64,000 nt of DNA from Sphingobium sp. WTD-1 (GTDB lineage Bacteria; Pseudomonadota; Alphaproteobacteria; Sphingomonadales; Sphingomonadaceae). The position numbers and the translations under genes were made by a program. Position 1 is the stretch's first letter. The number at the start of each line of letters is the position of its first letter. Where the stretch lies: the NCBI RefSeq assembly GCF_030128825.1, contig NZ_CP119127.1:4825501-4889500 (forward strand), written 5' to 3'. Positions 10,227 to 63,352 of the stretch are shown here, piece after piece. The notes below the pieces were generated by a model. That model did no database searches and was not told the DNA's origin. It was given only the letters and a program-made list of their open reading frames with translations.

Positions 10227-10300
10227 TCCAGACATTGTTTTGTCATCATTTCGCCCTACCGCACCGCCCCTGAAGCAGGAGCCGCGGGGGGATAATAAAC

Positions 10301-10915: not shown

Positions 10916-10974
10916 CCGTACGCACCCACAGCCAAGACTCGCCTTTTCCGCCCCGCCACACTAAATGCGGCGCC

Positions 10975-44986: not shown

Positions 44987-45129
44987 GTCAAAGGGCTGCG
45001 CGGGTCCGGCCGGAACGGACGAAGGGAAGAAGGATCGGCATCACCGACGCCTGCTTAGCGTATCGGGCGCGGCGACAAAAGCATGTGCCGACAATTGCAT
45101 GGCCGCTGCGCCGGGCGCACAAGGCACCC

Positions 45130-45915
45130 ATGCGCTTCCTTCATCCGATTCCGCTTCTGCTGCGCGCGCTCGCGCTCCTGTCCCTTTTGCTGTCACCATC
45201 CTGGGCCGCTGCTCAGGACAAGCGCGGACCACTGGTCCTTGCCGCCGCCAGCCTGCAGGAATCGATGAATGCCGCCGCAGATGCCTGGGCGCGGCAGGGC
45301 CATGCCCGCCCGGTCCTGTCCTTCGCCGCCTCCTCGGCGCTGGCCCGGCAGATCAAGGCCGGTGCCCCCGCCGACCTGTTCGCCTCCGCCGACGAGGATT
45401 GGATGGACGACATCCAGAAGGCCGGCTTCGTCGCGCGCGGCAGCCGCGCCGACATGGCCGGCAACCGGCTGGTGCTGGTCGCCCCGGCCGGCAAGCCAGT
45501 GCGGCTGCGCATCGGCCGCAACATGCCGCTGGCCGCAGCGCTGAACGGCGGCCGCCTCGCCATGGCCGATCCCGACGCCGTGCCGGCGGGCAAATATGGC
45601 AAGGCGGCGCTCACCGCGCTCAATGTCTGGCCCTCGGTCGCGGACAAGGTCGCGCGCGGCGACAGCGTGCGCGCCGCCCTCGCCCTGGTCGAGCGCGGCG
45701 CCACCCCGTTCGGCATCGTCTACGCAACTGACGCCCGCGCCTCGAAATCGGTGCAGACGGTCGGGACCTTCCCGACCGGCAGCCATCCGCCGATCCGCTA
45801 TCCGGTAGCGCGGCTGACCGCCAGTCGCCACCGCGACGCGGAAGGCTTCCGCCGCTTCCTGCTATCGGCGCAGGGCCGGGCGATCCTTGGCCGTTACGGC
45901 TTCAGCGCACCCTGA
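45130..45915 (+). CDS. modA: Molybdate ABC transporter, periplasmic binding protein
   Basis: The 261-residue protein has a signal peptide (LLLRALALLSLLLSPSWAAAQ) and the ModA fold: LVLAAASLQESMNAAADAW, FAASSALARQIKAGAPADLFASADEDWMD, and the hallmark MADPDAVPAGKYGKAAL. It binds molybdate (or tungstate) in the periplasm and delivers it to ModB. The ATG at 45130 gives a proper signal peptide; the frame is open further left but unsupported. It is separated from modBC by a minus-strand HAD gene, an uncommon arrangement. Confidence 0.92.
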   Translation: MRFLHPIPLLLRALALLSLLLSPSWAAAQDKRGPLVLAAASLQESMNAAADAWARQGHARPVLSFAASSALARQIKAGAPADLFASADEDWMDDIQKAGFVARGSRADMAGNRLVLVAPAGKPVRLRIGRNMPLAAALNGGRLAMADPDAVPAGKYGKAALTALNVWPSVADKVARGDSVRAALALVERGATPFGIVYATDARASKSVQTVGTFPTGSHPPIRYPVARLTASRHRDAEGFRRFLLSAQGRAILGRYGFSAP

Positions 45916-45934
45916 TCCCTGTCCATATCGCTGT

Positions 45935-46681
45935 CTATTTCTGGCAGGCGACGATCGCGTCGATCACCGAGAGCGTTTCCTGCGGATCGCGCACGCGCAC
46001 CGTGTCGAGCCCCAGTTCCTTGGCGGGATAGTCGTTGCCGCCCGGAAAAATGGCGTCGCCGATGAACATCATCGCGTCGAGCGCGATGCCGCTCGCGTCG
46101 CGCAGTTTCTTGAGGCCGTAGGCCTTGTCCACGCCTTCGCGCGTGATGTCGATCGACGTCGCACCGCCCATGTTGATCGACAGGCCCGGCAGGCGCTGGC
46201 GCAGGTCGGCCTGGATGATCTTGCGCTTGGCGAAGTCGGGATCCCAGCCTTCCTTGGCGTGGATCGGCGCCTGCTGGCCAAGCGCGGAGAAGGTGATCTG
46301 GCTGCCGCGATCCTCGATCCGCTCGCCCCAGGTCTGCTCGGGCACGAAGCCGGTCGCTTCCAGCGCCGCGTCGAACGCGGTCAGGATCGCCGCCTTCTGC
46401 GCCTCGTCAAACAGTTCGGCATAGACCGGGGTCCAGGCGCCCTGCTGATAGGTGTAAAGCTTGGTACCGGTCGTGGGCATCAGCCACAGCCGCGACAGGT
46501 CCGCGTCGGCCGGCAGGCGGCTCGCCACCTGCTTGTCGAACTGCGGCCAGTCGCCGCCAGAAATCACGGCGACGTGGGCCACCTTGAGCAGCCGGGTCAG
46601 GGCCTCGCCCATCGCCTCTCCTAGCGGCTGCTTGCTCTCTGCAAGCGTTCCATCAAGATCGAATGCAACAAGATCTTTCAT
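45935..46681 (-). CDS. HAD-IIB phosphatase of the eukaryotic-type phosphomannomutase family
   Basis: The 248-residue HAD enzyme has the nucleophile motif VAFDLDGTLAESK at the N-terminus, SGGDWPQFDKQV, GSQITFSALGQQAP, SIDITREGVDKAYGL and the metal motif FIGDAIFPGGNDYPAKELG. These segments are those of PMM1/PMM2-type phosphomannomutases, which interconvert mannose-6- and mannose-1-phosphate, the precursor of GDP-sugars. In bacteria such proteins may instead act as sugar phosphatases. A mannose-1-phosphate source would suit the polysaccharide cluster 3 kb away. It interrupts the modA-modBC locus. Confidence 0.85.
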   Translation of the reverse strand: MKDLVAFDLDGTLAESKQPLGEAMGEALTRLLKVAHVAVISGGDWPQFDKQVASRLPADADLSRLWLMPTTGTKLYTYQQGAWTPVYAELFDEAQKAAILTAFDAALEATGFVPEQTWGERIEDRGSQITFSALGQQAPIHAKEGWDPDFAKRKIIQADLRQRLPGLSINMGGATSIDITREGVDKAYGLKKLRDASGIALDAMMFIGDAIFPGGNDYPAKELGLDTVRVRDPQETLSVIDAIVACQK

Positions 46682-46870
46682 TCAAACCCCTGAAAAAGAA
46701 AATGGCGGAAGGCTGGATTAGCTGTAAAAGGTCGCCGTGCTGCTATCGCCTGCAAGACGAAACGACAATCCTTTCACGCATAGTGTGCGGAAAAGAACGA
46801 ATGGCGCGCCGATATTGCAGAGCCATGACGTCAACAATATCGGCCATCGGCGCCTTCAAGCGGCACTGCC

Positions 46871-47575
46871 ATGCTGACTGCGGTGAGTGCTGGAGAATGG
46901 AGCGTCATCCTGCTCTCCATGAAGATCAGTCTGGCGGCGATGGGAGCGATGCTGCCAGTCGCTTTCGCATTGGCATGGCTGCTCGCCCGCGCGCGCTTCC
47001 CTGGAAAGCTGCTGCTCGACGCCCTGGTCCATCTGCCGCTGGTCATTCCGCCTGTCGTAACAGGATGGCTTTTGCTGATCCTGTTTGGGTCGCAAGGGCC
47101 GATCGGATATTATCTGGAAAGCTGGTTCGGCATTACCCTGCTGTTTCGCTGGACCGGCGCCGCGCTGGCGGCTGCGATCATGGCGATGCCTCTGATGGTA
47201 CGGGCCATGCGCCTATCGATCGAGGCGATTGATCGCCGCTTGGAAACGGCGGCGCAATCATTAGGGGCCAGTCGAAGCCGCATATTTTTCAGCATCTCCC
47301 TGCCCCTGTCGCTCCCCGGCGTGCTGGCCGGCCTGGTACTGGGCTTTGCCCGGTCGATTGGCGAATTCGGCGCCACGATCACGTTCGTGTCGGACATACC
47401 GGGAGAAACCCGCACGCTGCCGATCGCCATATATTCGGCGCTCCAAGTGCCAGGTGCCGAAATGATGGTCGGCAGGTTGGCCCTGATATCCGTGATGCTC
47501 TCGCTAGTCGCGCTTATGCTTTCGGAACTTCTGGCCCGGCGCATCGCGCAAGGAGGGCGGCAGCATGTCCTTTGA
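46871..47575 (+). CDS. modB: Molybdate ABC transporter permease
   Basis: The 234-residue integral membrane protein has about five or six transmembrane helices. The signature LVHLPLVIPPVVTGWLLLILFG and the ATPase-coupling loop EAIDRRLETAAQSLGASRSRIFFSISLPLSLPGVLAGLVLGFARSIGEFGATI are those of ModB. It starts about 190 bases from the divergent HAD gene, and its end overlaps modC by 11 bases. Confidence 0.93.
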   Translation: MLTAVSAGEWSVILLSMKISLAAMGAMLPVAFALAWLLARARFPGKLLLDALVHLPLVIPPVVTGWLLLILFGSQGPIGYYLESWFGITLLFRWTGAALAAAIMAMPLMVRAMRLSIEAIDRRLETAAQSLGASRSRIFFSISLPLSLPGVLAGLVLGFARSIGEFGATITFVSDIPGETRTLPIAIYSALQVPGAEMMVGRLALISVMLSLVALMLSELLARRIAQGGRQHVL

Positions 47576-48188
47576 TATCGACATTCGCCGCACCATTGGC
47601 GCCAGAACCATCGGCCTGACCCATCGCAGCAGCAATCCGTTGATTGCCCTGGTCGGCCGCTCCGGAATCGGCAAGTCCAGCATTCTCGACATGATTGCCG
47701 GCGTGGCGCGGCCCGACAGCGGCGCAATCCAGATTGCCGGCCGGACTCTGTTCGACAGCGAGGCCGGCATCGACCTGCCGGTCGCGCAACGTCGTGTCGG
47801 CTACGTCTTTCAGGACCGCCGGCTCTTTCCGCATATGCGGGTACGCGCCAACCTGCTTTACGGCTATCGGCCGGAAGGCTCGGTCACATTGGCGGAGATC
47901 GTATCGGCCCTCGGTATTGCCCATCTGCTGGATCGCTGGCCCGCGCGCCTTTCAGGGGGAGAGGCGCAACGGGTCGCGATCGGCCGCGCGTTGCTGGCCA
48001 ATCCCGATTTCCTGCTTCTGGACGAACCCCTGTCCTCCCTCGACCAGCAGCGGAAGGCAGATATTCTCGACATATTGGATAATATCCGTCGCCACAGCGC
48101 CATCCCCATCATGATGGTTACACATGAACTGGCGGAGGCAATCTATCTCTCTGCCGAAATCGTGACGATGGAAGAGGATGGGATATAA
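47565..48188 (+). CDS. modC: Molybdate ABC transporter ATP-binding protein, short form
   Basis: The 207-residue ATPase has Walker A GRSGIGKSSI, a ModC-like QRRVGYVFQDRRLFPHMRVRANLLYG, signature LSGGEAQRVAIGRALL, and Walker B LLLDEPLSSLDQQ. The N-terminal 25 residues are ModC-like (FDIDIRRTIGARTIG). The usual C-terminal TOBE/MOP molybdate-sensing domain (about 100-150 residues) is absent, so feedback by molybdate binding to ModC is not expected. It overlaps modB by 11 bases. Confidence 0.9.
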   Translation: MSFDIDIRRTIGARTIGLTHRSSNPLIALVGRSGIGKSSILDMIAGVARPDSGAIQIAGRTLFDSEAGIDLPVAQRRVGYVFQDRRLFPHMRVRANLLYGYRPEGSVTLAEIVSALGIAHLLDRWPARLSGGEAQRVAIGRALLANPDFLLLDEPLSSLDQQRKADILDILDNIRRHSAIPIMMVTHELAEAIYLSAEIVTMEEDGI

Positions 48189-48867: not shown

Positions 48868-49275
48868 ACATGGAAATGAATTTGCAATCAAGCCAGGAGC
48901 ATGCGACCACATTGGCGTTCGCATATAGCGGTCTTGTGGCTGAAAATTGTTCAATCTTCCGTCCAGGAAGGATACAGGAAGGAGAGAGTGACAGCCCGTC
49001 GGTTCTAGCGACAAAGTTGCGTCAACAGGTTGTCGGGGCGATCATTCCAAGGGCGATTTCAATTTCCGTCATTTTGTAGCGATCTGGGCAATTGTCGCGA
49101 GCGCGACGAACTCCGTTTCGTTATCGCCGAGAAGATCGGCATGAGGATAGGGTGACGTCATAAAGACGCACCGAATTGATACTAAGCGATAGGGAGGGGA
49201 TTGCAGACGAGGCCATGTTGTGGCTGAGGACGATTGCGAGCCCATCTGGGTGTGATTTTGAGGAGCATTGGGGGA
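48868..49275. other. Intergenic region upstream of rmlB
   Basis: About 408 bases, AT-richer than surrounding coding DNA. A 71-codon frame starting at 48864 lacks coding character or any recognisable motif and was not called. The region probably carries the promoter of rmlB and the glycosyltransferase downstream; no repeat, JUMPstart-like element or terminator was recognised. Confidence 0.4.
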
Positions 49276-50346
49276 ATGGCGAACCTGATCGTTACGGGTG
49301 GTGCTGGGTTTATTGGCTCGAATTTCGTGCATCATTGGAAAAAAGTCTCGCCGGACGATGGCATCATCGTTCTTGATGCGCTGACCTATGCCGGCAACCC
49401 GGCCAACATTGCCGGTCTTGATGGGGTCGAACTGGTGCAGGGCGATATCTGCGATACCGCCCTTGTCTCCCGGTTGATCGACGCGCATGACGTTGACACG
49501 ATCGTCCATTTCGCTGCCGAAAGTCATGTCGATCGCTCCATCACCGGTCCCGACGCGTTCGTCACCACCAACGTTGTCGGCACGCACAGCCTGCTAAAAG
49601 CCGCCAAGGCCGCGTGGCTGGACAAGGGATCGGGCAAGCCCCACCGTTTCCACCATGTGTCGACTGATGAAGTCTATGGCACGCTGGAACCCGAAGACCC
49701 GGCATTCAGCGAAACGACGCCCTATGCCCCCAACTCGCCCTATTCCGCGTCCAAGGCCGGTTCGGATCATCTCGTTCGCGCCTATCAGCACACCTATGGC
49801 CTGGAGACGACGACCAGTAATTGTTCCAACAATTACGGACCGTACCAGTTTCCAGAGAAGCTGATCCCGCTGTTCACCCTCAATGCCCTGTCCGGGCGCA
49901 AGCTGCCCATCTATGGCGATGGCATGAACGTCCGCGACTGGCTGCATGTCGATGACCATTGTGTCGGCATCGAACGCATCTTGCGCGACGGGCGTGTGGG
50001 GGAAACCTACAATGTCGGGGGCGGTCAGGAATTGCCCAATATCGAGGTGATCCGCGAAATATGCCGCGGGGTCGATGCCGCTTTCGCCAAAGACCCGACG
50101 CTGGCCGACCGTTTCCCGGACGCACCAGCGGCTCAGGGTCGTTCGAGTGAAGAACTGATGACCTATGTCGAGGATCGCAAGGGGCATGACCGTCGCTACG
50201 CGATCGACGAAACCAAGATCCGTGGTGAACTGGGTTATGCGCCAGCGCGCGACTTCCCACAGGGCTTTGCCGAAACCCTGCACTGGTATCTGCAGAATGA
50301 GGACTGGTGGCGCCCGCTGATCGAGCGCGCAAAGCTCGGGCAGTGA
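49276..50346 (+). CDS. rmlB: dTDP-glucose 4,6-dehydratase
   Basis: The 356-residue extended SDR enzyme catalyses the second step of dTDP-L-rhamnose (and other dTDP-6-deoxysugar) synthesis. NAD-binding GGAGFIGSNFVHHW is at the N-terminus; VSTDEVYG and the catalytic YSASK are in place; NNYGPYQFPEKLIPLF and DWLHVDDHCVGI are RmlB signatures. The ATG at 49276 gives the family N-terminus, with GAGGAG and GGGGG upstream. rmlA, rmlC and rmlD are not in the window. Confidence 0.94.
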   Translation: MANLIVTGGAGFIGSNFVHHWKKVSPDDGIIVLDALTYAGNPANIAGLDGVELVQGDICDTALVSRLIDAHDVDTIVHFAAESHVDRSITGPDAFVTTNVVGTHSLLKAAKAAWLDKGSGKPHRFHHVSTDEVYGTLEPEDPAFSETTPYAPNSPYSASKAGSDHLVRAYQHTYGLETTTSNCSNNYGPYQFPEKLIPLFTLNALSGRKLPIYGDGMNVRDWLHVDDHCVGIERILRDGRVGETYNVGGGQELPNIEVIREICRGVDAAFAKDPTLADRFPDAPAAQGRSSEELMTYVEDRKGHDRRYAIDETKIRGELGYAPARDFPQGFAETLHWYLQNEDWWRPLIERAKLGQ

Positions 50347-50404
50347 AGCGCGCGCAGTAAACGACCTCATCTTGAAGACTCAGAATTAAATGCAAGGATT
50401 TCGC

Positions 50405-52651
50405 ATGAAGCTGGACCTGATCATCCCGGTATATCGAAATGTCGACCTCGTCGAAGCGTGCATCACGTCGCTCGTCCAGCATATCGATGAAGTCGCGGCC
50501 TATGACCCCCGCATCATCGTCATCAACGATTCCCCGGATGATACCGCCGTCAATAGCTATCTCGCTCAGGCGAGGGCCAAGGGGATCATCCATGAACTTG
50601 TCCGCAACCCGAAAAACTTGGGCTTCGTCAAGAGCGTCAACAAGGGGCTGACGCTTTCCAAGCAGCGGCAGGCCGCCGCGATCCTGGTCAACAGCGACAC
50701 CATCACCTACGCCAATACGCTGGCCGAAATGATGGCCGTGCTGGAAACCGATCCTCAGATCGGCTTTGTCTGTCCGCGGTCGAACAACGCGTCCATCTCA
50801 ACCTTCCCCCAGGCCCCCCACAATATGTCCGGCATCGCGACGACACCGGAAGTTTGCTACAAGGCCTGGGAGTCTGTTCATCATCATCTGGACCGCTACA
50901 CCTGGTCGCCTACAGCCGTCGGCTTCTATATGCTGATCGCTCCGGATGTGGTGTTGAATTTCGGCACTCTCGACGAGGAATTCGGCCTCGGTTACGAGGA
51001 AGAAAATGACATGGTGATGCGTGCCGGCAAGGTCGGCTACCGCGCGGTCATGGCCAACCACGCCTTTGCTTATCATGCCGGCTCAGCGTCGTTCATGCTG
51101 CATGACATGGACCTCAAGGGGCAGCAGCAGGGCAATCTGCAGAAAATGAATGCTCGGCATCCCGAATTCCTGCCGCTGGTATGGGATTTCGAAGCCTCCG
51201 CCGATTATCGCACCGAACTGAAGATCCGGCAGTTGGTTCCGACCATCGAGGGCAAGCTGAAAATTGCCCTGAACCTGCTGACATTCGGCAAGCACCACAA
51301 TGGCACGAGCGAGCATATGATGCATTTCGTGCGCTGGTGCGACAAGATGGCGCCCGACAATTTCGAAATCTATGCCATCTGCGAACCGTCGGTTGCCAAA
51401 TTCCACGGGATCGACGAGCTCAAGCGCATTCGGGTCCGCAAGGATTATGAGGCGAATTACGCGATCTCGATCTTCCCTGGTCAGCCTTTCGATCTGCATA
51501 TCGTCAATGTGATGGAACATCTGGCGCCGATTAATATCTACGGCATGCTGGATGTGATCGCGCTGGATTGCAGCCACCTGCGCGCCAGTAACGATCTTCA
51601 AGCATTGTGGGCCTATATTGCCGAACATGCCAATGGCCTGTTCTTCAACAGCGAATTTTCTGAACTGACCTTCCGCAATCGGTTCGAGCGCGAATTCAAT
51701 ACGCCGGTCTACACCAAATTGCTGCCCACGCAGGTCTCCGCCTACAAACCTCGTTTCGGCGATGTCGAAAAGGGACGAGAGCATGTGCTGGTGATGGGAA
51801 ACCATTTCCCGCACAAGGCATCGGAACCCGTTGGCGCCGTTATCGCCAAGGAAATGCCGAACCTGTCAGTCGTCACCCTGGGTGGCAGCACCACGACTGC
51901 CCGCAACGCCCGCATCCTGCAATCCGGGGTCATTCCCGAAGACGAGATGAACGACATCTTTGCGCGCGCCAGCGTTGTCGTCCTGCCTTCCTACTATGAG
52001 GGCTTTGGCCTTTCGCTGCTCAACGCGCTCGCCTTGGGCAAGCCGATCGTCGCCCGCGACATCCCCCCGACGCGGGAAATTCTGGCGACCTATAGCGACA
52101 TCAAGGGCGTGTTCCTGTTCCGCGACAACAAGGAAATTCCTGCGCTGATCAAAAAGGCCATCAGCGCCGAAACATCCAGTGTGGTAGAAAAGGACAGCAT
52201 CGACTGGGATCAGTGGTCGAAGGGCCTGTTCGACTTCTGCACCAGCCTGATTGAGCAACCCGATCTCTATCGGCGGATCATCAAGCGGACCAAGGACGGC
52301 GACGTCCTGCGTCGCTTCGCCCTGATCAGCCAGCAGGATACTCAGCCCAATCCGATGGCCAACAACTTCGTCGCGCCGACGGAAGTGCATGTCGATCACC
52401 TGCTTGCGCTTGATCAGGAATTCTTTGTCCGTGCCTTCTATGAGCAGTTGCTCGGCCGTCGCGTCGATCCAGCCGGCCTGGAACATCACATCGCCCTGCT
52501 CAACAACGGCACGACCAAGGTCGAAATCCTGCACTCGATCCTGAATTCGGAGGAGTTTCTGGAGAACCGAACTGGCGTATCGGTGATCGGACGCGACTTG
52601 CTGCGCAAGCCGCGCCGTTCCTGGATAGCCCGTCTGGCAAAGGCCGGCTGA
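50405..52651 (+). CDS. Bifunctional GT2-GT4 glycosyltransferase with DUF4214-like tail
   Basis: The protein has 748 residues. An N-terminal GT2 (GT-A) domain spans about residues 1-270 (LDLIIPVYRNVDLVEACITSL, ILVNSDTITYA as the DxD-like site, GLGYEEENDMVMRAGKVGY). A GT4 (GT-B) domain spans about 290-600 (VVVLPSYYEGFGLSLLNALALGKPIVARDIPPTREIL). A tail of about 50 residues (FFVRAFYEQLLGRRVDPAGLEHHIALLNNGTTKVEILHSILNSEEF) matches DUF4214-type phycobilisome-linker-like modules. It would add two sugars in sequence to a lipid-linked glycan. AAGGA 7 bases upstream supports the ATG at 50405. Convergent to the glycosyltransferase at 52820. Confidence 0.88.
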   Translation: MKLDLIIPVYRNVDLVEACITSLVQHIDEVAAYDPRIIVINDSPDDTAVNSYLAQARAKGIIHELVRNPKNLGFVKSVNKGLTLSKQRQAAAILVNSDTITYANTLAEMMAVLETDPQIGFVCPRSNNASISTFPQAPHNMSGIATTPEVCYKAWESVHHHLDRYTWSPTAVGFYMLIAPDVVLNFGTLDEEFGLGYEEENDMVMRAGKVGYRAVMANHAFAYHAGSASFMLHDMDLKGQQQGNLQKMNARHPEFLPLVWDFEASADYRTELKIRQLVPTIEGKLKIALNLLTFGKHHNGTSEHMMHFVRWCDKMAPDNFEIYAICEPSVAKFHGIDELKRIRVRKDYEANYAISIFPGQPFDLHIVNVMEHLAPINIYGMLDVIALDCSHLRASNDLQALWAYIAEHANGLFFNSEFSELTFRNRFEREFNTPVYTKLLPTQVSAYKPRFGDVEKGREHVLVMGNHFPHKASEPVGAVIAKEMPNLSVVTLGGSTTTARNARILQSGVIPEDEMNDIFARASVVVLPSYYEGFGLSLLNALALGKPIVARDIPPTREILATYSDIKGVFLFRDNKEIPALIKKAISAETSSVVEKDSIDWDQWSKGLFDFCTSLIEQPDLYRRIIKRTKDGDVLRRFALISQQDTQPNPMANNFVAPTEVHVDHLLALDQEFFVRAFYEQLLGRRVDPAGLEHHIALLNNGTTKVEILHSILNSEEFLENRTGVSVIGRDLLRKPRRSWIARLAKAG

Positions 52652-52819: not shown

Positions 52820-55216
52820 TCAGATCGAGGCGATCAAGCTTTGGCCATTGCCGCCCAATCTGGCACAAATCGCTGCGCTCGCCTCTCGCAAATAGGTAAT
52901 CGACGGCCCGGAAAATGCCTCCCGCACCAGATTGTCATACCCAGGATAGCGGACATTCAGCGTCTCGATCGCGGCAGTGACAAGCTGGTCCTTCTCTGCC
53001 TTGAAGCTTGCGGTGCGAACATGGAAAACGAAGGCCCAGGGCGAAATTAAATGGGTCCAGCCCGCAGCTTCGCTGCGCATGCAAAAATCATTTTCTTCCC
53101 CATAACCGCGCGGAAAGCCTTCGACATCGAAAGATCCGCAAGCATCGATCGCCGCCCGACGAATGAACAGACAGAAACCCGATCCGGTCGGCACCACAGG
53201 CGGTGGGCATTCGAATGTCCCCTGCACCATCAGCAGCGCATATTCTTCATGACTCAAATGCGCTGGCTTTTCGCAACGCTGACCGGGGAGTGGAAAGGAA
53301 AAGGCGCCTGCATTGTCACTCATCGCTGTCGCGGTCGCGATCATCGCCCGACTATAAGCGGTAGCACGTAGTCCTTCGAGCCAACGTGGCGTCACTATCG
53401 TATCGCTGTTCAGCAATATGACATCCCGGCCGGCGGCCAATTCAATGCCCAGATTGACGGTACGCGTATAACCAAGATTCTGCGGCGACCGCACCAATCT
53501 TATGCCCGCCCTGTCTTCCAGATCTTCGAATATCTGCGCAATTTCGTCATCGCTGCTCGCATCATCGATGAGAATGATTTCCGTCTCTGCCAGTTCGGTA
53601 TGCTTGAGCACCGATGCAATGCAGGCACGCACCTCGTCCGGCGCATTGAATATCGGTATGATCACGCTGACGGGCGGTGCGACACCGATTGCCTTGGCAA
53701 TGAGCGGCCGAGAGCCCTCAAAATTGCCCCGTTCTCGCATGGATCGTTCGGTAATCCGCTCATAGGCCTCCGCCATGCGTTCATTCAGCCGCTCTTGAGA
53801 GAAATTCTCCGTTATGAATGCCCGCCCCTCTTCACCCATCGTGCCAATCCGATGCCCGTTCTCACACAGTTCGACGATCGCATCGACGACCCCATCGATG
53901 TCACGGAAAGGCACAAGATAGCCGGTCTTTCCATGCTGCACCAACTCCGGCAACGCGCCCCAGCGATACGCGATGACCGGCCGGCCGGCCGCCATGGCCT
54001 CCGCGACCGTCCGACCAAAGGACTCGGCAAAGGTCGACAGATTGAGGAGGACGTTGATCTCCGCGATCGCCGTACGGGCGTCGGCTTGATAGCCGGCAAA
54101 AACAAGATTGTCGGGACGCTCTCCTCGACGGACCTCATCCATCCACTGCTCGATCTGAGCGGTTTTCGGGCCGACGATGACAAATCTGGCGCGGGGCGTC
54201 CGATCCGCAGCCCGGCTCGCCACCTCGACAAAATCGGCGATGCCCTTCTTGGGAAGATTGGAACTGACGATGCCGAACCGTATTTCGGCGCCGAAAGCGT
54301 TCCGCATCTCGAAATCTTCGATTGTCACCGCATTGGGGACATAAATCGTCCGATCGTCGCGACTGAACAATTCGCATGTCGCACGCGAATTACCGATGAG
54401 CCAATCGCTCCGCTCGAAGATGCTATCCACGATATAATCCGCGGTCTGCCGCAGTTGCTGCTGCAGGCCGTCATCGAGCGATATCAGTTCCCGAACATGG
54501 ATGACTGCCGTACGCCCCATTTTCCTGGCAGCCACCATGGGTTCAAACAACACAATGGTATTGGCATATACTATATCTACGGCTTCGCGACTGATAATAT
54601 CGGCAAAATCCAGTGCCGACCAAGCATAGACGTCTCTATTTTCCATCCATTGGGGATAGTTGAACGTGTATATGGCCGCGCAAAGTGACTGGATACGTAG
54701 AAAATAATCGTGATTATCGGCAGCGGGCAAGGTGACGATCACATTGACCGGAAGCAATGCGACCGCTGTCAGAACGTCAAGCAGGCTGCGCTCCCCTCCG
54801 AACAGTTCAGCGCTGACACTATGGGCACATATAAGGATAGTCGGCCGATCCGCCTCAATGCGGCATTGCCCCTCATGCCGCCGCCGCCCTTGCGGCATTT
54901 GGCCATCGGCAGAGAGCGGCGCGCCCAAATGGGCAAACCGCCCACGAACAGCAGCCCGCCCTTCGGCCTTTCCGAAGCGAATATAATGAATTAACGCATC
55001 AATCCCTGCCTCGGCGACATCGCCATTGGTCTCAAGATAGAGATGCGTGTCGAAGCCGGGACCGGGGTCCCGGCGCAACAACATGCCGAACCGGACGAAA
55101 TGCTCCAGCGGCGGCAATCCGACCTCGGCAACGTCCTGATAAGTGCGCGTATACCACGCTTCGTCAAACAAACCAGATTTGGCGATTTCCGTGGCGATCT
55201 GTTCCCAGTCGTCCAA
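52820..55216 (-). CDS. Bifunctional GT4-GT2 glycosyltransferase with N-terminal repeat domain
   Basis: The protein has 798 residues. An N-terminal domain (1-95) has two copies of an aromatic/His motif: SGLFDEAWYTRTYQDVAEVGLPPLEHFVRFG and LYLETNGDVAEAGIDALIHYIRFGKAEGR. A GT4 domain covers about 125-490 (LLNLSTFAESFGRTVAEAMAAGRPVIAYRWGALPELV). A C-terminal GT2 domain covers about 530-798 (VSVIIPIFNAPDEVRACIASVLKH, ILLNSDTIVTPRWLEGL, GYGEENDFCMRSEAAGW). Domain order is opposite to that of the glycosyltransferase at 50405. It probably extends the same surface glycan. The small gene immediately upstream encodes a near relative of the N-terminal domain. Confidence 0.88.
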   Translation of the reverse strand: MDDWEQIATEIAKSGLFDEAWYTRTYQDVAEVGLPPLEHFVRFGMLLRRDPGPGFDTHLYLETNGDVAEAGIDALIHYIRFGKAEGRAAVRGRFAHLGAPLSADGQMPQGRRRHEGQCRIEADRPTILICAHSVSAELFGGERSLLDVLTAVALLPVNVIVTLPAADNHDYFLRIQSLCAAIYTFNYPQWMENRDVYAWSALDFADIISREAVDIVYANTIVLFEPMVAARKMGRTAVIHVRELISLDDGLQQQLRQTADYIVDSIFERSDWLIGNSRATCELFSRDDRTIYVPNAVTIEDFEMRNAFGAEIRFGIVSSNLPKKGIADFVEVASRAADRTPRARFVIVGPKTAQIEQWMDEVRRGERPDNLVFAGYQADARTAIAEINVLLNLSTFAESFGRTVAEAMAAGRPVIAYRWGALPELVQHGKTGYLVPFRDIDGVVDAIVELCENGHRIGTMGEEGRAFITENFSQERLNERMAEAYERITERSMRERGNFEGSRPLIAKAIGVAPPVSVIIPIFNAPDEVRACIASVLKHTELAETEIILIDDASSDDEIAQIFEDLEDRAGIRLVRSPQNLGYTRTVNLGIELAAGRDVILLNSDTIVTPRWLEGLRATAYSRAMIATATAMSDNAGAFSFPLPGQRCEKPAHLSHEEYALLMVQGTFECPPPVVPTGSGFCLFIRRAAIDACGSFDVEGFPRGYGEENDFCMRSEAAGWTHLISPWAFVFHVRTASFKAEKDQLVTAAIETLNVRYPGYDNLVREAFSGPSITYLREASAAICARLGGNGQSLIASI

Positions 55217-55676: not shown

Positions 55677-57563
55677 CTATTTTTTTACGCCCAGAGCATC
55701 TTTCAACCAACGGATCGGCGCCATGGCGCGATAGGAAGGCGAGGCCTGGATCATGTTCAATTGCATTTCGCGATCCGCCAATTGCTGACGAAGGCTGACC
55801 ATTTCTTCCTGCTGACCCGCAAAATCCTGACGCATGGCCGCCAGTTCAGCCACGCGTTCTTCCAGAACATCATCTTGCGCGATCAATCTCGTCGCCATGA
55901 CGCCCAGTTCTTCAAAGCGAAGGCCGAGCGTTTCCTGCAATTCGCTGCGCTCAACTTCGCTCTGCTCCCACAGCACAATCTGCGTTTCGAGATTTTGCTG
56001 CTGTCGCTCCAATCGCTCTGTCAGCGTCCGCCGTTCTTCATCCGCTGCCTGCAACTGTCCGGCGATGCTATCTTGTGACGACGCATATTCCGCGCGAATG
56101 GTCGCAAGCATATCCGCATGTCCTTGCCGGTCCGCCTCTGCTTGCTGCAACCGCGCCCTAAGATCTGCGACCTCCTCTTGCGAGGCAGTCAGCGCAGCCT
56201 CCCTGACCGCATGAGCCTGGGCATGCAGCCGCTGCTCCTCATTCAACGCGTCCAGCTTAGCTCTGAACAATGCCACCTTATCTTGCGAGGCAGTCAATTC
56301 GGCGCGCATAGCCTCAAGCTCTTCCGCATGCCCCTGCAATGTACGGCCGTTCTCCACCAATTGGGCGGTAATCGTGCCCAACTCCTTGAAACGGGTCTTG
56401 AGTTCGGCTTCCAGCGTCTTGCGCACCTTTTGCAGAGCCCGGCGCTCGGCCTCGCTCGCCTCCAATTGACGCGCACGCTCAGCCAGTTCCTCGACGCGAG
56501 CCGCCAGCCCCTGCCGCTCACGCTCGGCCTCGGCCCGCGCGCTGCGCTCCGCCTTCAACTGCGCGTCTGCACTCTCGACGCCTTGCCCCAACTGATGAAT
56601 GCGCGCCTCAAGAAGCCGCTTATCCTCGGTCAGTTGCTCTTCCAGTTGCGCTCGTTTGACCAGGTCCGCCTTCAGCCGGGAGGCCATGGACTGCATGTCC
56701 TTCAGGCTGCGGTTCAACTTTTCCCGTTCGCCCTGCGCTTTGTCGCGCGCCTGTCGCTCCTCGTGCCACTTGGCTTGGCCATCGAACAATTGCTGCAGGA
56801 CAGCAGTTTGTTCATGCTGTCCTTCCGCAAGGCCTGCTTCAAGTTCGGCAATCTTCTTGTCAGTCGCCGCCTGCAAACCGGTCAGTCGCACACATTCGCG
56901 CACGGCTTCATCATGGCGCGCAAAAGCGGCCTCGATATCGGCGGCAGAGCGATCCAGGTCCATCAACGCTGCGCTCGCTTCCAATTCACCAGCAATCGCT
57001 GTCGCGACCTCATCCCGTCGCAGCAATTCCGCGCCAAGTATCCGTGCCAGGGCATTGTCCGTCACGAGATATTCGATCGGAATGACCGGCATCTCCTGTT
57101 CGAGCGGCAAACCCATCTGGCGCAATGCCTTGGACGCATCGCCCGCGAAGGCGACATCCTCGACAATCACGGCGCGCCGACGATTTTTCCGAAAGAAGAT
57201 CAGCAGCTTCTCGGTTCGCTCACGCCACTCATCCAACGCTTGTTGGGCCGGCACACCGGCTTCGATCGCCAATGCGAGCGCTTCTGCAGGCGCGGATTGC
57301 AGAATGAGAATGGCCGTCTCCTGATCCACCTGATCAGGCGCCTCCAGAAACTGGGGTGCGAAGTGCGAGACGGCCAATGCCACCTCCGCCAACCCCCGCA
57401 GACGCTCAGCATGCGCAACGCCGCCCGCATCAATATATATGGCAACCTTTTCTGCCGGCACATCCGGAATACTCTGGTTGGATATCTGCACCGTTGTCTC
57501 CGCTCTGCGGGGCGCCGCATCGGCCCCCATTTGCTCACCAGACTGCCCTGAATTCGATGTCAT
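55677..57563 (-). CDS. Long coiled-coil protein of the polysaccharide cluster
   Basis: The protein has 628 residues. The N-terminal region of about 200 residues looks globular, mixed alpha/beta, with EKVAIYIDAGGVAHAERLRGLAEVALAV, LLIFFRKNRRRAVIVEDVAFAGDASKALRQMGLP and PVIPIEYLVTDNALARILGAELL; it is not recognised. Residues about 205-600 are continuous heptad-rich coiled coil (LEAGLAEGQ, RARQLEASEAERRALQKVRKTLEAEL and onward). The C-terminus, SPSYRAMAPIRWLKDALG, matches the W-R-x-T-x-P-x-R-like ending seen after coiled coils in glycosyltransferases. No signal peptide or transmembrane helix. It likely scaffolds the glycan assembly machinery. Confidence 0.75.
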   Translation of the reverse strand: MTSNSGQSGEQMGADAAPRRAETTVQISNQSIPDVPAEKVAIYIDAGGVAHAERLRGLAEVALAVSHFAPQFLEAPDQVDQETAILILQSAPAEALALAIEAGVPAQQALDEWRERTEKLLIFFRKNRRRAVIVEDVAFAGDASKALRQMGLPLEQEMPVIPIEYLVTDNALARILGAELLRRDEVATAIAGELEASAALMDLDRSAADIEAAFARHDEAVRECVRLTGLQAATDKKIAELEAGLAEGQHEQTAVLQQLFDGQAKWHEERQARDKAQGEREKLNRSLKDMQSMASRLKADLVKRAQLEEQLTEDKRLLEARIHQLGQGVESADAQLKAERSARAEAERERQGLAARVEELAERARQLEASEAERRALQKVRKTLEAELKTRFKELGTITAQLVENGRTLQGHAEELEAMRAELTASQDKVALFRAKLDALNEEQRLHAQAHAVREAALTASQEEVADLRARLQQAEADRQGHADMLATIRAEYASSQDSIAGQLQAADEERRTLTERLERQQQNLETQIVLWEQSEVERSELQETLGLRFEELGVMATRLIAQDDVLEERVAELAAMRQDFAGQQEEMVSLRQQLADREMQLNMIQASPSYRAMAPIRWLKDALGVKK

Positions 57564-58163
57564 AGCCCGTTCACTCTATTCCCATAAAGAAATGACCCGA
57601 ACTAAATCGACAGAAAAATTTCATTCCTGTGGCCCAAATCGTCACAATCTGACGCAATCCACCCTCCGCCCTTTTGCAAAAAAATCGGCTTCAAGCAATA
57701 TGACTGCCGCCATGGCACCAGGCTTCAATCCTAAACGAATCTCCGAACGCTTTCACACAATTAACCAAGAATGGGTCATCTCCGCGCCTGCTGGAGGGAC
57801 AAAGACTATCACCGTCCTATCCCCGCCCCTTTCACCGACACTGCGTCATCAGAAGCGCGCGGCTGTATTCTCGATCTCGTCCCCCTGAAGGCTATTTCAC
57901 CTTTCAAAGGAGGCTAAGGCGCGACCCGTAGAAACAACCATAGGAAAGCAATCAAAATATGTAAATCCTTCGATTATGGGTCATTTGCCATGAAGATCGG
58001 GGGGAAGCCCAGCTTGACAAGGCCATCCCGGTCCCGCCTATTAGGGAAGCGGCCTTCGGCCAGCAGCAATACGGGTCGCCACGGATATGATGGCCGGGAG
58101 CATTACGCCCGTTAGGGGCTTGCCCCACCAGCTAGATTGTTCAGATTTGGGGGGTGTTTGACA
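57564..58163. other. Divergent promoter region
   Basis: 600 bases between the coiled-coil gene (minus) and the epimerase gene (plus), clearly AT-richer in its left half. Short frames in it show no coding character. It should contain promoters for both directions. A GGGGGG tract at 58149-58154 is the ribosome binding site for the epimerase. No terminator or repeat was recognised. Confidence 0.45.
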
Positions 58164-59174
58164 TTGACGCGCATTTTCGTGACTGGAACGGCTGGCTTTA
58201 TCGGTTATCACTTGGCCGAATTATTGCTTCAGGAAGGCATTGAGGTCGCTGGCTATGACGGCCTGACCGACTATTATGATGTCGAGCTGAAACGCCGTCG
58301 CCACGCATTGCTGCGCCAATATCCGAATTTCTCGGCCACGGAGGCCCTGTTGGAAGACGGGGATAGTCTGGATCAGGCCGTCGACGCCTTCAAGCCAGAC
58401 ATCATTGTTCACCTCGCCGCTCAGGCAGGCGTGCGCTATTCGATCGAACAGCCCCGGGCTTATGTATCGGCCAATATTGTGGGCACGTTCAACGTGATGG
58501 AAGCGGCCCGGCGCAATGCGGTCCAGCATCTGCTCATGGCCTCGACCAGCTCGGTCTATGGCGCCAATACGCAGATGCCTTATGCCGAAGCGCACAAGGT
58601 TGACACGCAGATGTCTTTCTACGCCGCGACGAAGAAAGCCAATGAAGCGATGGGTCATTCCTGGTCGCATATTCACGGCGTGCCAATCACCATGTTCCGC
58701 TTCTTCACGGTCTATGGACCTTGGGGCCGCCCCGACATGGCGCTGTTCAAATTCACTCGTGGCATCCTGGCTGGCGAGCCGATCGATGTTTACAATCATG
58801 GCGACATGTGGCGGGACTTCACTTATGTCAGTGACCTGGTCCGAGGCATCAGGTTACTGATCGATGCCATTCCGGGTGATGCAGGTACCGCAGTCGAGGG
58901 CGACAGCCTCTCGCCGGTAGCGCCCTTCCGTGTCGTCAACATCGGCAATTCACAGAAGGTCCGACTGGAAGATTTCATTGATGCCATCGAGGCCGCTATC
59001 GGAAAAAAGGCGGTACGCAACTACATGGACATCCAGCCTGGCGATGTCCCCGCCACTTGGGCCGATGCCACATTGTTGCAGAATTTGACCGGCTACGCCC
59101 CGCAGACGGACGTGCGCGACGGCGTGAACCAATTCGTTGCCTGGTATCGGGATTATTATAATATTACGCCCTGA
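58164..59174 (+). CDS. NAD-dependent epimerase, UDP-glucuronate 4-epimerase-like
   Basis: The 336-residue extended SDR enzyme has the NAD motif RIFVTGTAGFIGYHLAELLL, YDGLTDYYDVELKRRRHALL (a hallmark of UDP-glucuronate epimerases), STSSVYG, catalytic YAATKKANE, and RFFTVYGPWGRPDMALFKF. The probable reaction is interconversion of UDP-glucuronate and UDP-galacturonate, providing acidic sugars for the polysaccharide. The TTG at 58164 was chosen because the GGGGGG site ends nine bases upstream and the protein then begins MTRIFVTG; a TTG at 58158 is too close to that site. Confidence 0.88.
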   Translation: MTRIFVTGTAGFIGYHLAELLLQEGIEVAGYDGLTDYYDVELKRRRHALLRQYPNFSATEALLEDGDSLDQAVDAFKPDIIVHLAAQAGVRYSIEQPRAYVSANIVGTFNVMEAARRNAVQHLLMASTSSVYGANTQMPYAEAHKVDTQMSFYAATKKANEAMGHSWSHIHGVPITMFRFFTVYGPWGRPDMALFKFTRGILAGEPIDVYNHGDMWRDFTYVSDLVRGIRLLIDAIPGDAGTAVEGDSLSPVAPFRVVNIGNSQKVRLEDFIDAIEAAIGKKAVRNYMDIQPGDVPATWADATLLQNLTGYAPQTDVRDGVNQFVAWYRDYYNITP

Positions 59175-59342: not shown

Positions 59343-62258
59343 ATGAGAGCCGAAGAAGTCGACCAGGAAGACCAGCAACTTCATCCTGTTGATGTGGCAC
59401 GTCCAGATCACGCAAATTTGACCACCACAGGCGCGCCCATAGAGGCCTCCTCCGCTCTCGAAGCCGGGCACAGCGCTACGCTAGGTATGATCATGAACAA
59501 GTCGTTCCCTGAGGCAATCACATGGGCTGCAAGCCGCAGTCCGATCGGCACAATTGTCGACATCGGCGCTGGCAGCGGTGAAATTCTACGCATTCCAGCG
59601 GTTGCTTCGGCACAACATATTCTGTTGGTGGAACCAAATCCGCTGCACCTTTCTAGATTGAGGAAATTGTCGGCCGGCGACGACCGGATCAGCATATTGC
59701 CCGTGGCGGTCGCAGACTTTGCCGGTGAGGTTGTCCTGCGCCAGTTTAATTTCCCTGCGCTGGCCAGTATTCAGGCCCCTTCCGAGACATTGATGCGATT
59801 GCTTCCCGGCCTGCGTCAAACCAAACAGCAAGATGTCGATGCGCTACCGCTGGCCACCATCCTGGCAGAAAGCCTGCCCCTGGAAAATGCGCAGGTCGAT
59901 GCCAGCAACATTTTGATCATCGAAGCCAATGGTGCCGAACTGGACATCGTGCGCGATTTATTGGCCTCTGATCATTCAAGTCATTTTGCCTATATTTTTC
60001 TGCATGCCGGGCGCGATGCGGCCTATCAGGACACTCTCCCCCTATCCGAGGCACAAACCCTGCTCGAAGCGGCCGGATATCAGCTGTCCTGTCAGGACGA
60101 GGGCGATCCGGATTTCCCCTGGCTGGTTTTCATGCTGGATCAGGTCGCCCTGCAGTTGCTCGATTTACGCCAGCAAGTGGCCAAACGGGATGAGGCCCAG
60201 GAGAGCGACCGCAAACGTCTGGCGGACTTGAACAAGCAGTTGGAGAGCAGCAAGACCGAAAGCCGCAGCCGCTCTCAACGCGTCGAAGAGTTGAAGAAAG
60301 AGATTGCAGCGCAGGCTGACAGGCACGGTGCCATCAAAACCCAGCTCATCGAGCGGGAACAACGCATCGAAGATCTCAACAAGGAAATCGCGGCGCTGAC
60401 GGGCAAGCAGGCCACAATCGAAGCGCAACTCATCGAGCGCGACCAGCAGATCGCATCGCTGCAGGATCAGGCGGCCGAGCAGGCCAAAACGCAGGATGCC
60501 GAGCGCCAGCAGGTCCGCGACCTTACCAAACAGCTTGAAACAGCCAAGGCCGAAAGCCAAGGCCGCTCGAAGCGCGTCGAAGATCTCAAGAAAGAGATCG
60601 CTGCGCTGGCGGACAATCAGACCACGATCGACACTCAACTCATCGAGCGCGATCAGCAAATCGCTTCGTTGCAAGAGCAGGCGGCCAAGCTGGCCGAGGC
60701 GCAGGATGCCGAGCGCCAGCAGAACCGGGAGCTTGCCGGACAGCTTGAAACAGCCAAGACCGAAAGCCGAGGCCGTTCCAAGCGCATCGAAGATCTCAAG
60801 AAAGAGATCGCAGCGCTGACGGACAATCAGAGCGCAATCGAAGCTCAACGCACCGAGCGCGAGCAACAGATCGCATCCTTGCGGGATCAGGCAGCCGAGC
60901 AGGCCAAGGCGCTAGGCGCTGCTCAGCAACGGATCGCCGAGTTGACCAAGCAACTGGAAACGACGCGAGGAGAAAGCCGGGGGCGCTCCGAACGGGTAGA
61001 GGATCTGAAAAAGACCGTTGCGGCCCTGTCTGAAAAGCAGACCAGCATGAGCGTTGATCTCGCTGCGCGCGACAAGCAAATCGCGCTACTCCAGAGTCAG
61101 GCGATCGATCAGGCCAAGACCCATGAGGCGGATCGCCTGTATAGCCGCGAATTGATGCAACAGCTTGAAGTGATCCAGGCAGAGAGCGCAGATCGCGCCT
61201 CCTGCATTGACGACCTCGGCAAACAGCTCAATGCCGCGAAGTCGGAAAGCCGCGATCGCTCGCAGCGCGTTGAAGACCTGAAAAAGGAGAATGATTCGCT
61301 GCTGGAAAAGCAGCGAGCAGCGCAGGCCGAAATCGAGACCGCTTCTGCAGCACAGAAAGCGGACGGCAAAAAGATCGACACTCTTGCCAGTCAGTTGGAC
61401 CAGGCGAAGGCCGAAAGCCGTAGCCGGGCCGAACGGGTCGAAGATCTCAAGCGCGAGATTGCCGAAATGCAAGTGACAGCCAAGGCCCATCTGGCCGACC
61501 GCGACCAGCAATTGCGCGCTCTGAAAGCGAAAGTCGAGGATCTGACCAAGGCCCGCGATGCAGATCGGCTGAAGATCGAGGAACGCAACGTCCATCTCGA
61601 CAGCGTGAAGGCGGAGAGCCGCCAGAGAGCCGAACGGGTCGAAGAACTCAAGCGGGACAATGCGGCCCTTCAGGACCAGCAAATCGCCGCCGAAGCCAGC
61701 CTGGCAGAGCGGGATCAGCAATGCATATTGCTACAGCTTCAAATCGAGGAGTTGGAGCTGCTACTTGGCAATACACGGCAGGACAATCTTGACCAGGCCG
61801 GCCAAATCGAGGCGCTCCGGCAGGAAAAAGATGAACTTCTCGATCGGCAGAGTGCAACGGAATCCGGCCTGACCGAGCGGCATGAGCAATTGTCCCAGTT
61901 GCAAGCCCGCTATGACGACCAGGCCAAGGCCCGCAATGCCGATCGCGAGAAGATCGACGAACTCGGCAAGCAGCTCGACAGTGTGAAGGCCGAAAGCCGT
62001 GGCCGATCCTTGCGGGTCGAGGATCTCAAAAAAGAGGCTGGCGGACTGCGAGACGAGCTTGCGCAACTGCGCTCCGAATGGAGCATGGCGATCGAAAAGG
62101 AACAGAATGTCCGGGACAGCCTGTTGCGCGCCGAAGCCCAATTGGCACTGATGAAGGATCTGATCGGCCTTCAGACCCGGCCTGACATCGTCGCGCCGGA
62201 CAAGCAGCGGATCGGGAGCAAGCGGCTGCCCAAATCCACTGTTCCTGCACAGCCATGA
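59343..62258 (+). CDS. FkbM-like methyltransferase fused to a long repetitive coiled coil
   Basis: The protein has 971 residues. The N-terminal domain (about residues 50-270) is a Rossmann methyltransferase related to FkbM: TIVDIGAGSGEILRI as SAM motif I, LLVEPNPLHLSRLRKL, and LPVAVADFAGEVVLRQF. The family's usual lysine-aspartate DVEGAE segment is present as IIEANGAELDIV, so activity is uncertain. Residues about 281-930 are a nearly pure coiled coil of repeated units (QLETAKAESxGRSKRVEDLKKE). Unit starts are spaced 98, 70, 70, 70, 21, 56, 67 and 126 residues apart, nearly all multiples of seven. The architecture recalls WbdD of E. coli O9a, whose coiled coil sets O-antigen length. It overlaps the next gene by four bases. 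Confidence 0.85.
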   Translation: MRAEEVDQEDQQLHPVDVARPDHANLTTTGAPIEASSALEAGHSATLGMIMNKSFPEAITWAASRSPIGTIVDIGAGSGEILRIPAVASAQHILLVEPNPLHLSRLRKLSAGDDRISILPVAVADFAGEVVLRQFNFPALASIQAPSETLMRLLPGLRQTKQQDVDALPLATILAESLPLENAQVDASNILIIEANGAELDIVRDLLASDHSSHFAYIFLHAGRDAAYQDTLPLSEAQTLLEAAGYQLSCQDEGDPDFPWLVFMLDQVALQLLDLRQQVAKRDEAQESDRKRLADLNKQLESSKTESRSRSQRVEELKKEIAAQADRHGAIKTQLIEREQRIEDLNKEIAALTGKQATIEAQLIERDQQIASLQDQAAEQAKTQDAERQQVRDLTKQLETAKAESQGRSKRVEDLKKEIAALADNQTTIDTQLIERDQQIASLQEQAAKLAEAQDAERQQNRELAGQLETAKTESRGRSKRIEDLKKEIAALTDNQSAIEAQRTEREQQIASLRDQAAEQAKALGAAQQRIAELTKQLETTRGESRGRSERVEDLKKTVAALSEKQTSMSVDLAARDKQIALLQSQAIDQAKTHEADRLYSRELMQQLEVIQAESADRASCIDDLGKQLNAAKSESRDRSQRVEDLKKENDSLLEKQRAAQAEIETASAAQKADGKKIDTLASQLDQAKAESRSRAERVEDLKREIAEMQVTAKAHLADRDQQLRALKAKVEDLTKARDADRLKIEERNVHLDSVKAESRQRAERVEELKRDNAALQDQQIAAEASLAERDQQCILLQLQIEELELLLGNTRQDNLDQAGQIEALRQEKDELLDRQSATESGLTERHEQLSQLQARYDDQAKARNADREKIDELGKQLDSVKAESRGRSLRVEDLKKEAGGLRDELAQLRSEWSMAIEKEQNVRDSLLRAEAQLALMKDLIGLQTRPDIVAPDKQRIGSKRLPKSTVPAQP
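60231..62027 (+). repeat. Tandem coding repeats, 210-bp (70-residue) units
   Basis: Units opening with x-x-QLET/DxxKAES start at 60231, 60525, 60735, 60945, 61155, 61218, 61386, 61587 and 61965. Three consecutive intervals are exactly 210 bp. The first unit is longer by 84 bp through an internal 28-residue (4-heptad) duplication. The interval from 61386 is 201 bp, a four-residue phase shift (stutter). The repeats lie wholly within the methyltransferase-coiled-coil gene. Confidence 0.85.
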
Positions 62259-63352
62259 AACAGTCGATCGAACAACGGTGCGCGACGGCCCGTCTCTATT
62301 GGCAAATCGGCAACTGGGCTGGCCTCGCTGACCTGGAACTCGCCCTCGATGAAGTCGGCAACGCCCCTGAAGAATTATTATTATACAAGGTTCAAGGCCT
62401 GTTCCAAACTGGACAGAATGATGAAGCGATCCGACTTGCCCGCAAGGCTCTGGCAGCCGCTCAGTCCCCTGCACGGTTGATAGAGGCGCTCGCCAGCGGC
62501 ACCCATGCAGCGCTGGCGCAAGCCTGGATGTTTCTCGACGTCCGCGACGCGGCGGTCAGTAATATTGTCGAGGCCGTGACCCTGCATCCTGCGGGCGGAG
62601 ACGTATCGACCGTCGTTGGGATGCGTTTCGAGGCCGAGCGCAGTGCGGCCGAGAAGAAAGCGAACCGCATTTTGTGCCGTGACGTCCCGGCCAGGAAATT
62701 GTTTGTCGATTGCGGTGGCCATGATGGCTGTTCCGCCGTCATGTTCCTGCTTCGTCATCCGGATTTTGACTGCGTGACGTTCGAGCCCAATCCGGCGCTC
62801 CATAAATATTATGCCGGCGTCCCAACGCAATTGCGGCCTGAAGCGGCCTACACCTACAATGGCGAGATAAATTTCACGATCGATCCGATCGATGCGGACG
62901 GGAGTTCGCTGATCGAAGGGAAACGGATCGACGCGACCAAGAAACTGGAAAATGCGGAATGCCCCGTCATCAATGCGCCATGCATTGATCTTTCCGAATA
63001 TATTCGAACGGTTTCGTCTAAATATGACGAAATTCATTTGAAAATGGACATTGAGGGTGCCGAATATGACATCCTTGAAAAAATGCTATCCGATGGAACA
63101 CTAAACCTTATAGACAAGCTTTATTGCGAGTTCCACGTAGAGAAAATCCCAATGGACCCGAAACGCCATGATGATATTGTGGCGCGAGCATCGGCCATTG
63201 TTGGTAAAATCCAAGAGTGGAATGCTCACATATTCAAAACTGGGGATGGCGCATCCGTTAAAGCCAGAAGAGCTTATATGCTCGATCTGATCGAAAATAT
63301 GCGCCAGAATTTATTTGGAGAACGGCATGGAACGCCTCGCCTCTATTCCTGA
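62255..63352 (+). CDS. FkbM family methyltransferase with N-terminal TPR-like region
   Basis: The protein has 365 residues. The first 120 are helical, TPR-like (RLYWQIGNWAGLADLELALDEVG, LLLYKVQGLFQTGQNDEAIRLARKALAAA). The methyltransferase follows: KLFVDCGGHDGCSAVMFL as SAM site, CVTFEPNPALHKYY, and the FkbM hallmark HLKMDIEGAEYDILEKML. It probably methylates a hydroxyl of a sugar in the glycan. The ATG overlaps the stop of the coiled-coil gene (ATGA), and the 3' end overlaps the next gene by 26 bases, so these three genes form one translation-coupled unit. Confidence 0.88.
   Translation: MKQSIEQRCATARLYWQIGNWAGLADLELALDEVGNAPEELLLYKVQGLFQTGQNDEAIRLARKALAAAQSPARLIEALASGTHAALAQAWMFLDVRDAAVSNIVEAVTLHPAGGDVSTVVGMRFEAERSAAEKKANRILCRDVPARKLFVDCGGHDGCSAVMFLLRHPDFDCVTFEPNPALHKYYAGVPTQLRPEAAYTYNGEINFTIDPIDADGSSLIEGKRIDATKKLENAECPVINAPCIDLSEYIRTVSSKYDEIHLKMDIEGAEYDILEKMLSDGTLNLIDKLYCEFHVEKIPMDPKRHDDIVARASAIVGKIQEWNAHIFKTGDGASVKARRAYMLDLIENMRQNLFGERHGTPRLYS

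Follow-up and report, generated by a model that had tools for sequence, protein, structure and literature searches.

We tentatively interpret a methyltransferase-like protein with a very long coiled coil, encoded in the analyzed 64,000-nucleotide stretch of Sphingobium DNA (hereafter the window), as the rod of a two-piece polysaccharide-finishing ruler complex, a reading that we hold with slightly less than even confidence. In the proposed complex, a methyltransferase-fold head would sit at one end of a ~100-nm rod, and a C-terminal tag at the other end would bind the TPR domain of the next gene’s product. This partner would contribute an FkbM methyltransferase whose motif is intact or, in relatives, other enzymes. 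In one version, the head would be the distal finisher and the TPR protein would anchor the rod where the polymer is assembled; in the other, the TPR-enzyme would be the finisher and the head would sense the chain. The reading draws on the head fold, the coil, the tag, the TPR partner linked to it, the proximity of an exporter in half of the genomes tested and heptad steps among the closest relatives, all of them read from sequence; we infer tag–TPR binding, the end that carries the finishing enzyme, the polymerase site and any effect on chain length. The architecture of the coil protein is real and uncommon; its ruler function is putative and proposed by analogy.

To our knowledge, no length-setting mechanism has been established for kps-type capsules. 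In the part consulted, a 2025 review presumes that the chain length of ABC-exported capsules results from synthesis and export jointly and states that its control warrants further investigation (PMC12220298). A rod and docking-partner pair in a kps locus, with natural whole-heptad variants in close relatives, would make the chain-length question directly testable, and the tag–TPR pairing, if the binding is true, would constitute a natural modular docking system. The elements that appear to be new here are the tag family, its matching TPR partner, a second tail type, coil lengths in heptad steps and linkage to ABC-2 permeases.

The coil protein and its head domain

The longest open reading frame (ORF) of the coil gene in the ORF list begins at 59343, upstream of the probable true start at 59493, which was placed by alignment with the relatives P0003–P0005. 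From this start, the gene (59493..62258, forward strand) encodes 921 residues. The head (59493..60137, forward strand), with its boundary near residue 215, has a class I SAM methyltransferase fold of the FkbM type. It retains the SAM motif VDIGAGSGE, with the motif I acid, the GxG loop and an acid after strand 2, and it matches TIGR01444 (FkbM) with 41.2 bits against a curated cut-off of 37.7. FkbM methyltransferases are characterized by the motif D(I/V)EGxE, from which the window head departs. At this position, alignment gave IEANGAE in the window protein and P0003, LEVPGLE in P0004 and LEITGME in P0005, confirming the alteration to EANGAE that had been noted from the sequence alone. Across the 16 rows of a head alignment, neither the GxG loop nor the acid that follows strand 2 varied (16/16), while the motif I acid was kept in three rows and missing in 13. 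Because most relatives lose this acid, the head may lack terminator function, which counts against the two-piece ruler. We do not claim that the whole head family consists of pseudo-enzymes, given the invariant GxG loop and post-strand-2 acid. For the window head, the SAM methyltransferase fold is present and any catalytic activity is putative.

From residue 216–217 onward, the head is followed by a heptad coiled coil of ~690 residues (60138..62210, forward strand), nearly continuous and with one phase shift near residues 650–690, which predicts a rod about 100 nm long. A full-length AlphaFold model of the protein contained long helices at low confidence (pLDDT 62.6), which counts against the two-piece ruler. 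No adjacent kinase domain of the O9a type lies between the head and the coil. The original description of a SAM-methyltransferase-like domain on a very long coil, thus, holds for this FkbM-type head. The protein could also be an ordinary FkbM O-methyltransferase acting on polysaccharide, with a coil that serves oligomerization only; this would agree with the FkbM-type fold of the head, its above-cut-off TIGR01444 match and its retained motif I acid, GxG loop and post-strand-2 acid. We consider this improbable, as ~690 residues far exceed the needs of oligomerization, the FkbM motif is altered in the head but intact in the partner described below, and 13 of the 16 aligned heads lack the motif I acid.

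The C-terminal tag and its partner genes

Near its C terminus, the coil protein carries a conserved tag, RAEAQLALMKDLIGLQ (62127..62174, forward strand), recognized by alignment and motif scan. The tag has the consensus AEAQ..L.KD, and the corresponding tail, termed type A, reads (R/K)AE(A/G)Q..L(I/M/V)(K/R)D. A DNA scan of the genome contigs located the type A motif at 70 loci (L057 and L060 being one record). At 69 of these, it lies 13–23 residues before the stop, a position that was not part of the search criterion; the remaining one, L097, matches by chance at a distance of 202 residues from the stop and was dropped from the downstream, TPR and length counts. The tag was also present in nine family members retrieved with the head by sequence search, independently of the motif.

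A head profile matched in 18 of 298 genomes of the family and 16 of 398 of the phylum, the source genome being within both sets. Many of these matches are plain FkbM enzymes, and one subset bears a coiled tail, for which two alternative end motifs were distinguished by eye. Type A tails occur in the window protein and P0003, P0004 and P0005 and, partly with changes, in the coil proteins of L050, L051, L052, L054, L057 and L058; type B tails occur in those of L048, L053, L055 and L056. The L049 protein (9379–11085) combines a methyltransferase-like head, a short coil and a sulfotransferase-like domain, thereby fusing parts that L048, L053, L055 and L056 encode in separate genes. Heads range from FkbM-like to sulfotransferase (L068, L099 and L120, all three above the Pfam cut-off) and others. 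By these features, the window protein is a member of a family with differing heads, found mostly in Pseudomonadota. Protein searches returned only four and two proteins, near-copies of the query among them, and comparison of the full protein with the genome contigs matched 73 stretches, none of which was confirmed as a relative.

Directly after the coil gene, with an ATGA overlap, lies the partner gene (62255..63352, forward strand; 365 aa). It encodes a TPR-like domain (62270..62689, forward strand), common to the post-coil gene in relatives, and an FkbM methyltransferase domain (62708..63175, forward strand; Pfam PF05050, residues 152–307) with the canonical DIEGAE. The overlap fits the translational coupling to an FkbM gene proposed in the sequence-only reading, but the neighbor is more than a coupled gene, having a conserved TPR domain. 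Because the neighbor has the canonical FkbM motif and the coil protein a changed one, it may be the neighbor that acts as the modifying enzyme.

An HMM built from 24 relatives’ neighbors, with the window excluded, matched the window’s downstream gene (E 7.6e-10), and an own-genome search with profile A5, which includes the window sequence, found the TPR-like domain once in the window genome. Among the 69 motif loci, 52 contain a TPR domain, 47 on the same strand at most ~1.1 kb downstream and five elsewhere; 12 have none, and five are too short to judge. The fraction with a same-strand TPR gene within ~1.1 kb downstream is, thus, 47 of 64 testable loci; the 12 of 64 without a TPR gene in the stretch examined and the five of 64 with one elsewhere count against the two-piece ruler. 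Where tag-bearing loci were found by way of the head, a TPR gene lies at most 1.6 kb downstream in six of six. The domain was confined to one gene in 28 of 28 genomes accessed by way of these loci, two of which have it twice within one reading frame. On this sequence evidence, the TPR domain is conserved beside the coil’s C-terminal tag across many genera. Extra domains among 51 TPR partners included FkbM (14), BNR_4 (6) and Methyltransf_23 (5), with one sulfotransferase and one radical SAM domain as single occurrences. The partner’s enzyme domain appears to be optional because some TPR partners, with frames of only 202–252 aa (L066, L068, L072 and L095), have no room for one; this counts against the two-piece ruler. 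A PDB search with the partner gene gave no match up to E 1.

Several side observations concern these loci. BNR_4 is the second domain of the TPR partners in L105 (1268–3352), L087, L088 and L119, and the one checked, the L105 protein, gave a below-cut-off match to an alpha-L-rhamnosidase model; such a hydrolase-like domain is odd for a glycan synthesis locus. The tail variant AEAQL(D/E)LLKD(L/V)M characterizes five of the 12 TPR-less loci (L099, L102, L107, L120 and L123), and the two with a complete frame, L099 and L120, have a sulfotransferase head. Two distinct tag-bearing coil proteins per record were noted for L095 and L099 on a Polaromonas contig and for L068 and L071 in a Methylotuvimicrobium record.

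At type B loci, the TPR domain was absent in five of five, and a sulfotransferase-like domain was adjacent or, for L049, fused in all five, three of these matches being below the Pfam cut-off. This distribution suggests that there are two docking tags, each with its own kind of partner, the type A tag presumably binding the TPR domain. A wider generalization, which strikes us as possible though doubtful, would be a modular two-piece glycan ruler, mostly in Pseudomonadota, with swappable heads (methyltransferase-like, sulfotransferase), heptad-quantum coils and partner-selecting tags, serving kps-type capsules among others. One tag would then select the TPR-enzyme and the other the sulfotransferase.

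The window also encodes a second coiled-coil protein (55677..57563, reverse strand; 628 aa), the head of which is related to the gene that immediately precedes the coil gene in relatives, as indicated by phmmer (L065, E 3e-6; L054, E 1.6e-5) and by hhalign with profile A7 (94.8% over 129 columns). An A7-family gene ends within ~0.2 kb of the coil frame start on the same strand at 15 of the 69 motif loci, a count affected by the many loci that end early on the upstream side. Because the head of this second ORF relates to the A7 family, the window seems to hold all three pieces, that is, an A7-related gene, the coil gene and the TPR partner, in a rearranged order. Assignment of the A7 (‘Up’ family) head as a sulfotransferase was unsupported (hhalign 2.5%).

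Coil length and exporter linkage

Within the coil lies a 210-bp tandem repeat of about three copies (60363..60989, forward strand), each unit encoding 70 residues or ten heptads. Relative to its nearest relative, P0002, the window protein has two additional blocks of 70 and 21 residues, and the 70-residue block falls inside this repeat. For comparison across the family, length was taken from a landmark in the head to the tag, a measure independent of gap placement inside the coil because the landmarks sit in head and tag. A naive composition-based estimate of coil length stopped too early (39 residues for the window protein) and was not used. The head-to-tag span varied from 150 to 779 residues in 16 members (~665 in the window) and was ~120 residues by eye in L058, so that coils in the family range from about 120 to 780 residues.

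Differences that are multiples of seven were found for P0004/P0005 (161 residues), L064/L113 (105), L066/L084 (98), L081/L082 (224) and L062/L065 (399). The length test excluded ORFs with masked letters or N-terminal truncation, except for L062, which retains its head. When disjoint pairs were drawn in identity order by script, six of 11 differed by a multiple of seven and five did not (p ~0.002 at 1/7), and the three closest pairs were among the six. All 36 overlapping pairs with a head comprised 13 multiples of seven and 23 non-multiples, which counts against the two-piece ruler. A variant that included truncated ORFs covered 56 pairs, with 28 non-zero multiples, four without a difference and 24 non-multiples. 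Whole-heptad steps, therefore, appear as a tendency, clearest in the closest pairs. Coil length, singled out at the outset as worth comparing, does vary among relatives, and between the most closely related proteins the difference is mostly a whole number of heptads.

Such variation also has a reading without measurement. Coil and tag might act as a scaffold that gathers modifying enzymes (methyltransferase, sulfotransferase, glycosidase-like) into one membrane complex and so raises modification efficiency; length would be neutral and would drift by heptad slippage since only register is selected. Differing heads and partner enzymes that share tag and TPR, the span from about 120 to 780 residues and the 14 of 28 genomes that have no visible ABC-2 permease within 15 kb all fit this possibility. 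Coils of such length would, however, be an expensive way to build a simple scaffold, and where long coils occur in ABC-type glycan loci, they are known to act as rulers, as far as the consulted part of PMC11231755 describes them. We regard the scaffold as unlikely overall while giving it real weight.

The window contains rmlB, encoding dTDP-glucose 4,6-dehydratase (49234..50346, forward strand), two glycosyltransferase genes, one with GT2-type and GT4-type domains and a C-terminal DUF4214 (50390..52651, forward strand) and one with GT4-type and GT2-type domains (52820..55216, reverse strand), and an NAD-dependent sugar epimerase/dehydratase gene between the two coiled-coil genes (58137..59174, forward strand). 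Past the window end follow genes for a large glycosyltransferase, RmlA, RmlC, RmlD, an ABC ATPase, a KpsM-like permease, a KpsE-family protein, an export protein and KpsS; the kpsT/M/E-like genes, the export protein and kpsS lie ~11–21 kb downstream of the coil gene. The names KpsM, KpsE and KpsS denote best NCBIfam matches below curated cut-offs, and ABC_tran, ABC2_membrane, Poly_export and Capsule_synth scored above Pfam cut-offs. The surface-polysaccharide locus recognized earlier was, thus, borne out by ABC exporter genes, kpsS, rmlABCD and glycosyltransferases in or beyond the window. Molybdate ABC transporter genes resembling modA, modB and modC, identified by eye at 45085–48188, are unrelated to the coil gene. 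In the source genome, an ABC-2 permease (PF01061) was found ~11.6 kb downstream of the coil gene on the opposite strand, and the only above-cut-off Wzx-type match is ~400 kb away. KpsT at this locus has 216 aa and the ABC_tran domain only, with the cap-binding domain (Wzt CBM) absent; cap-gated export as in O9a is, therefore, not expected, and the missing domain counts against the two-piece ruler.

Among 28 genomes, 14 have an ABC-2 permease that shares the strand of the TPR gene and lies 4–14 kb from it, two of the 14 matches being below the Pfam cut-off. Random placement would predict 0.96 genomes with a permease within 15 kb, but as a null model it is weak because of the clustering of glycan genes. 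The remaining 14 genomes, in which no ABC-2 permease was seen within 15 kb, count against the two-piece ruler; they include one with a below-cut-off permease at 21 kb and one with a contig ending nearby. With phmmer, no ABC exporter was seen in 11 20-kb neighborhoods of this permease-less group. Wzx was found within 15 kb of the locus in none of the 28 genomes, an uninformative absence because only 0.42 would be expected by chance. Those relatives in glycan loci without a visible exporter could also point to protein glycosylation (for example, of flagellin or an adhesin) or to some other process at the cell surface, and not to the assembly of capsule or O-antigen. This we judge very improbable, as genes of the kpsT/M/E type, kpsS, rmlABCD and a gene for an export protein are present at the window locus and no flagellar gene was recognized by eye in the neighborhoods inspected.

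Comparison with known enzymes and chain terminators

The head shares its fold and a weak family match with FkbM methyltransferases (TIGR01444; structure 2py6), which have D(I/V)EGAE where the window head has EANGAE; the window protein in addition bears the long coil and tag. Literature searches found no work joining an FkbM methyltransferase with a coiled coil, nothing related by title on FkbM, tetratricopeptide and O-antigen, and nothing on a sphingo capsule polysaccharide with KpsM and KpsE. Combining coiled-coil, tetratricopeptide, chain length, ABC transporter and methyltransferase retrieved PMC11231755 alone.

Coiled-coil terminators described for ABC-exporter loci in the consulted part of that paper are WbdD, WbbB and those of O4 and O7. 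WbdD, according to the excerpts available from PMC11231755 and PMC5082667, has its coil between the capping enzyme and a polymerase-recruiting C-terminal region, and the length of the glycan chain is set by that of the coil. Its forms in E. coli O8/O9/O9a and K. pneumoniae O3/O5 resemble the window protein, as far as described in the sections seen of PMC3482155 and PMC11231755, in an N-terminal methyltransferase, a long coil, a functional C terminus (a role predicted for the window protein) and an ABC-exported glycan. The window protein has no kinase, and export at its locus is of the kps type with the 216-aa KpsT. The C terminus of WbdD pairs with the WbdA polymerase, whereas the window’s tag appears to pair with a TPR-enzyme gene; the whole C-terminal domain of WbdD spans 249 residues (460–708), as given in the excerpts, compared with the ~690-residue coil. 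The head profile matched 17 PDB sequences up to E 10, WbdD not among them, and WbdD was also not among the 50 rows listed by VIA-align, which excludes nothing. The sequence-only reading had taken the missing kinase, together with the altered FkbM motif, to imply a different design. For the kinase this did not hold, as O8 WbdD is said in the consulted part of PMC3482155 to be a simple methyltransferase, so that a kinase-free protein is no novelty on that count alone. Its proposed WbdD-type analogue is supported by the head, the long coil and the ABC-exporter locus; no sequence relationship to WbdD was detected in the PDB search, and KpsT has no cap-binding domain. A terminator of the WbdD type would also bind the membrane through its C-terminal region, where the window protein has the conserved tag with its putative partner. 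A WbdD-like ruler remains a reasonable analogy for the coil protein, and WbdD was picked right as the analogue for this uncommon architecture.

WbbB (K. pneumoniae O12), ORF7-O4 and ORF6-O7 share with the window protein a terminating enzyme on a coiled coil and an ABC-dependent glycan, as outlined in the part seen of PMC11231755. The terminators described there are Kdo transferases or a methyltransferase-kinase; some of them are joined to polymerase modules in one protein, and ORF7-O4 also has a TPR-like helical bundle. In the window system, by contrast, the TPR domain is on a separate partner protein that carries its own enzyme.
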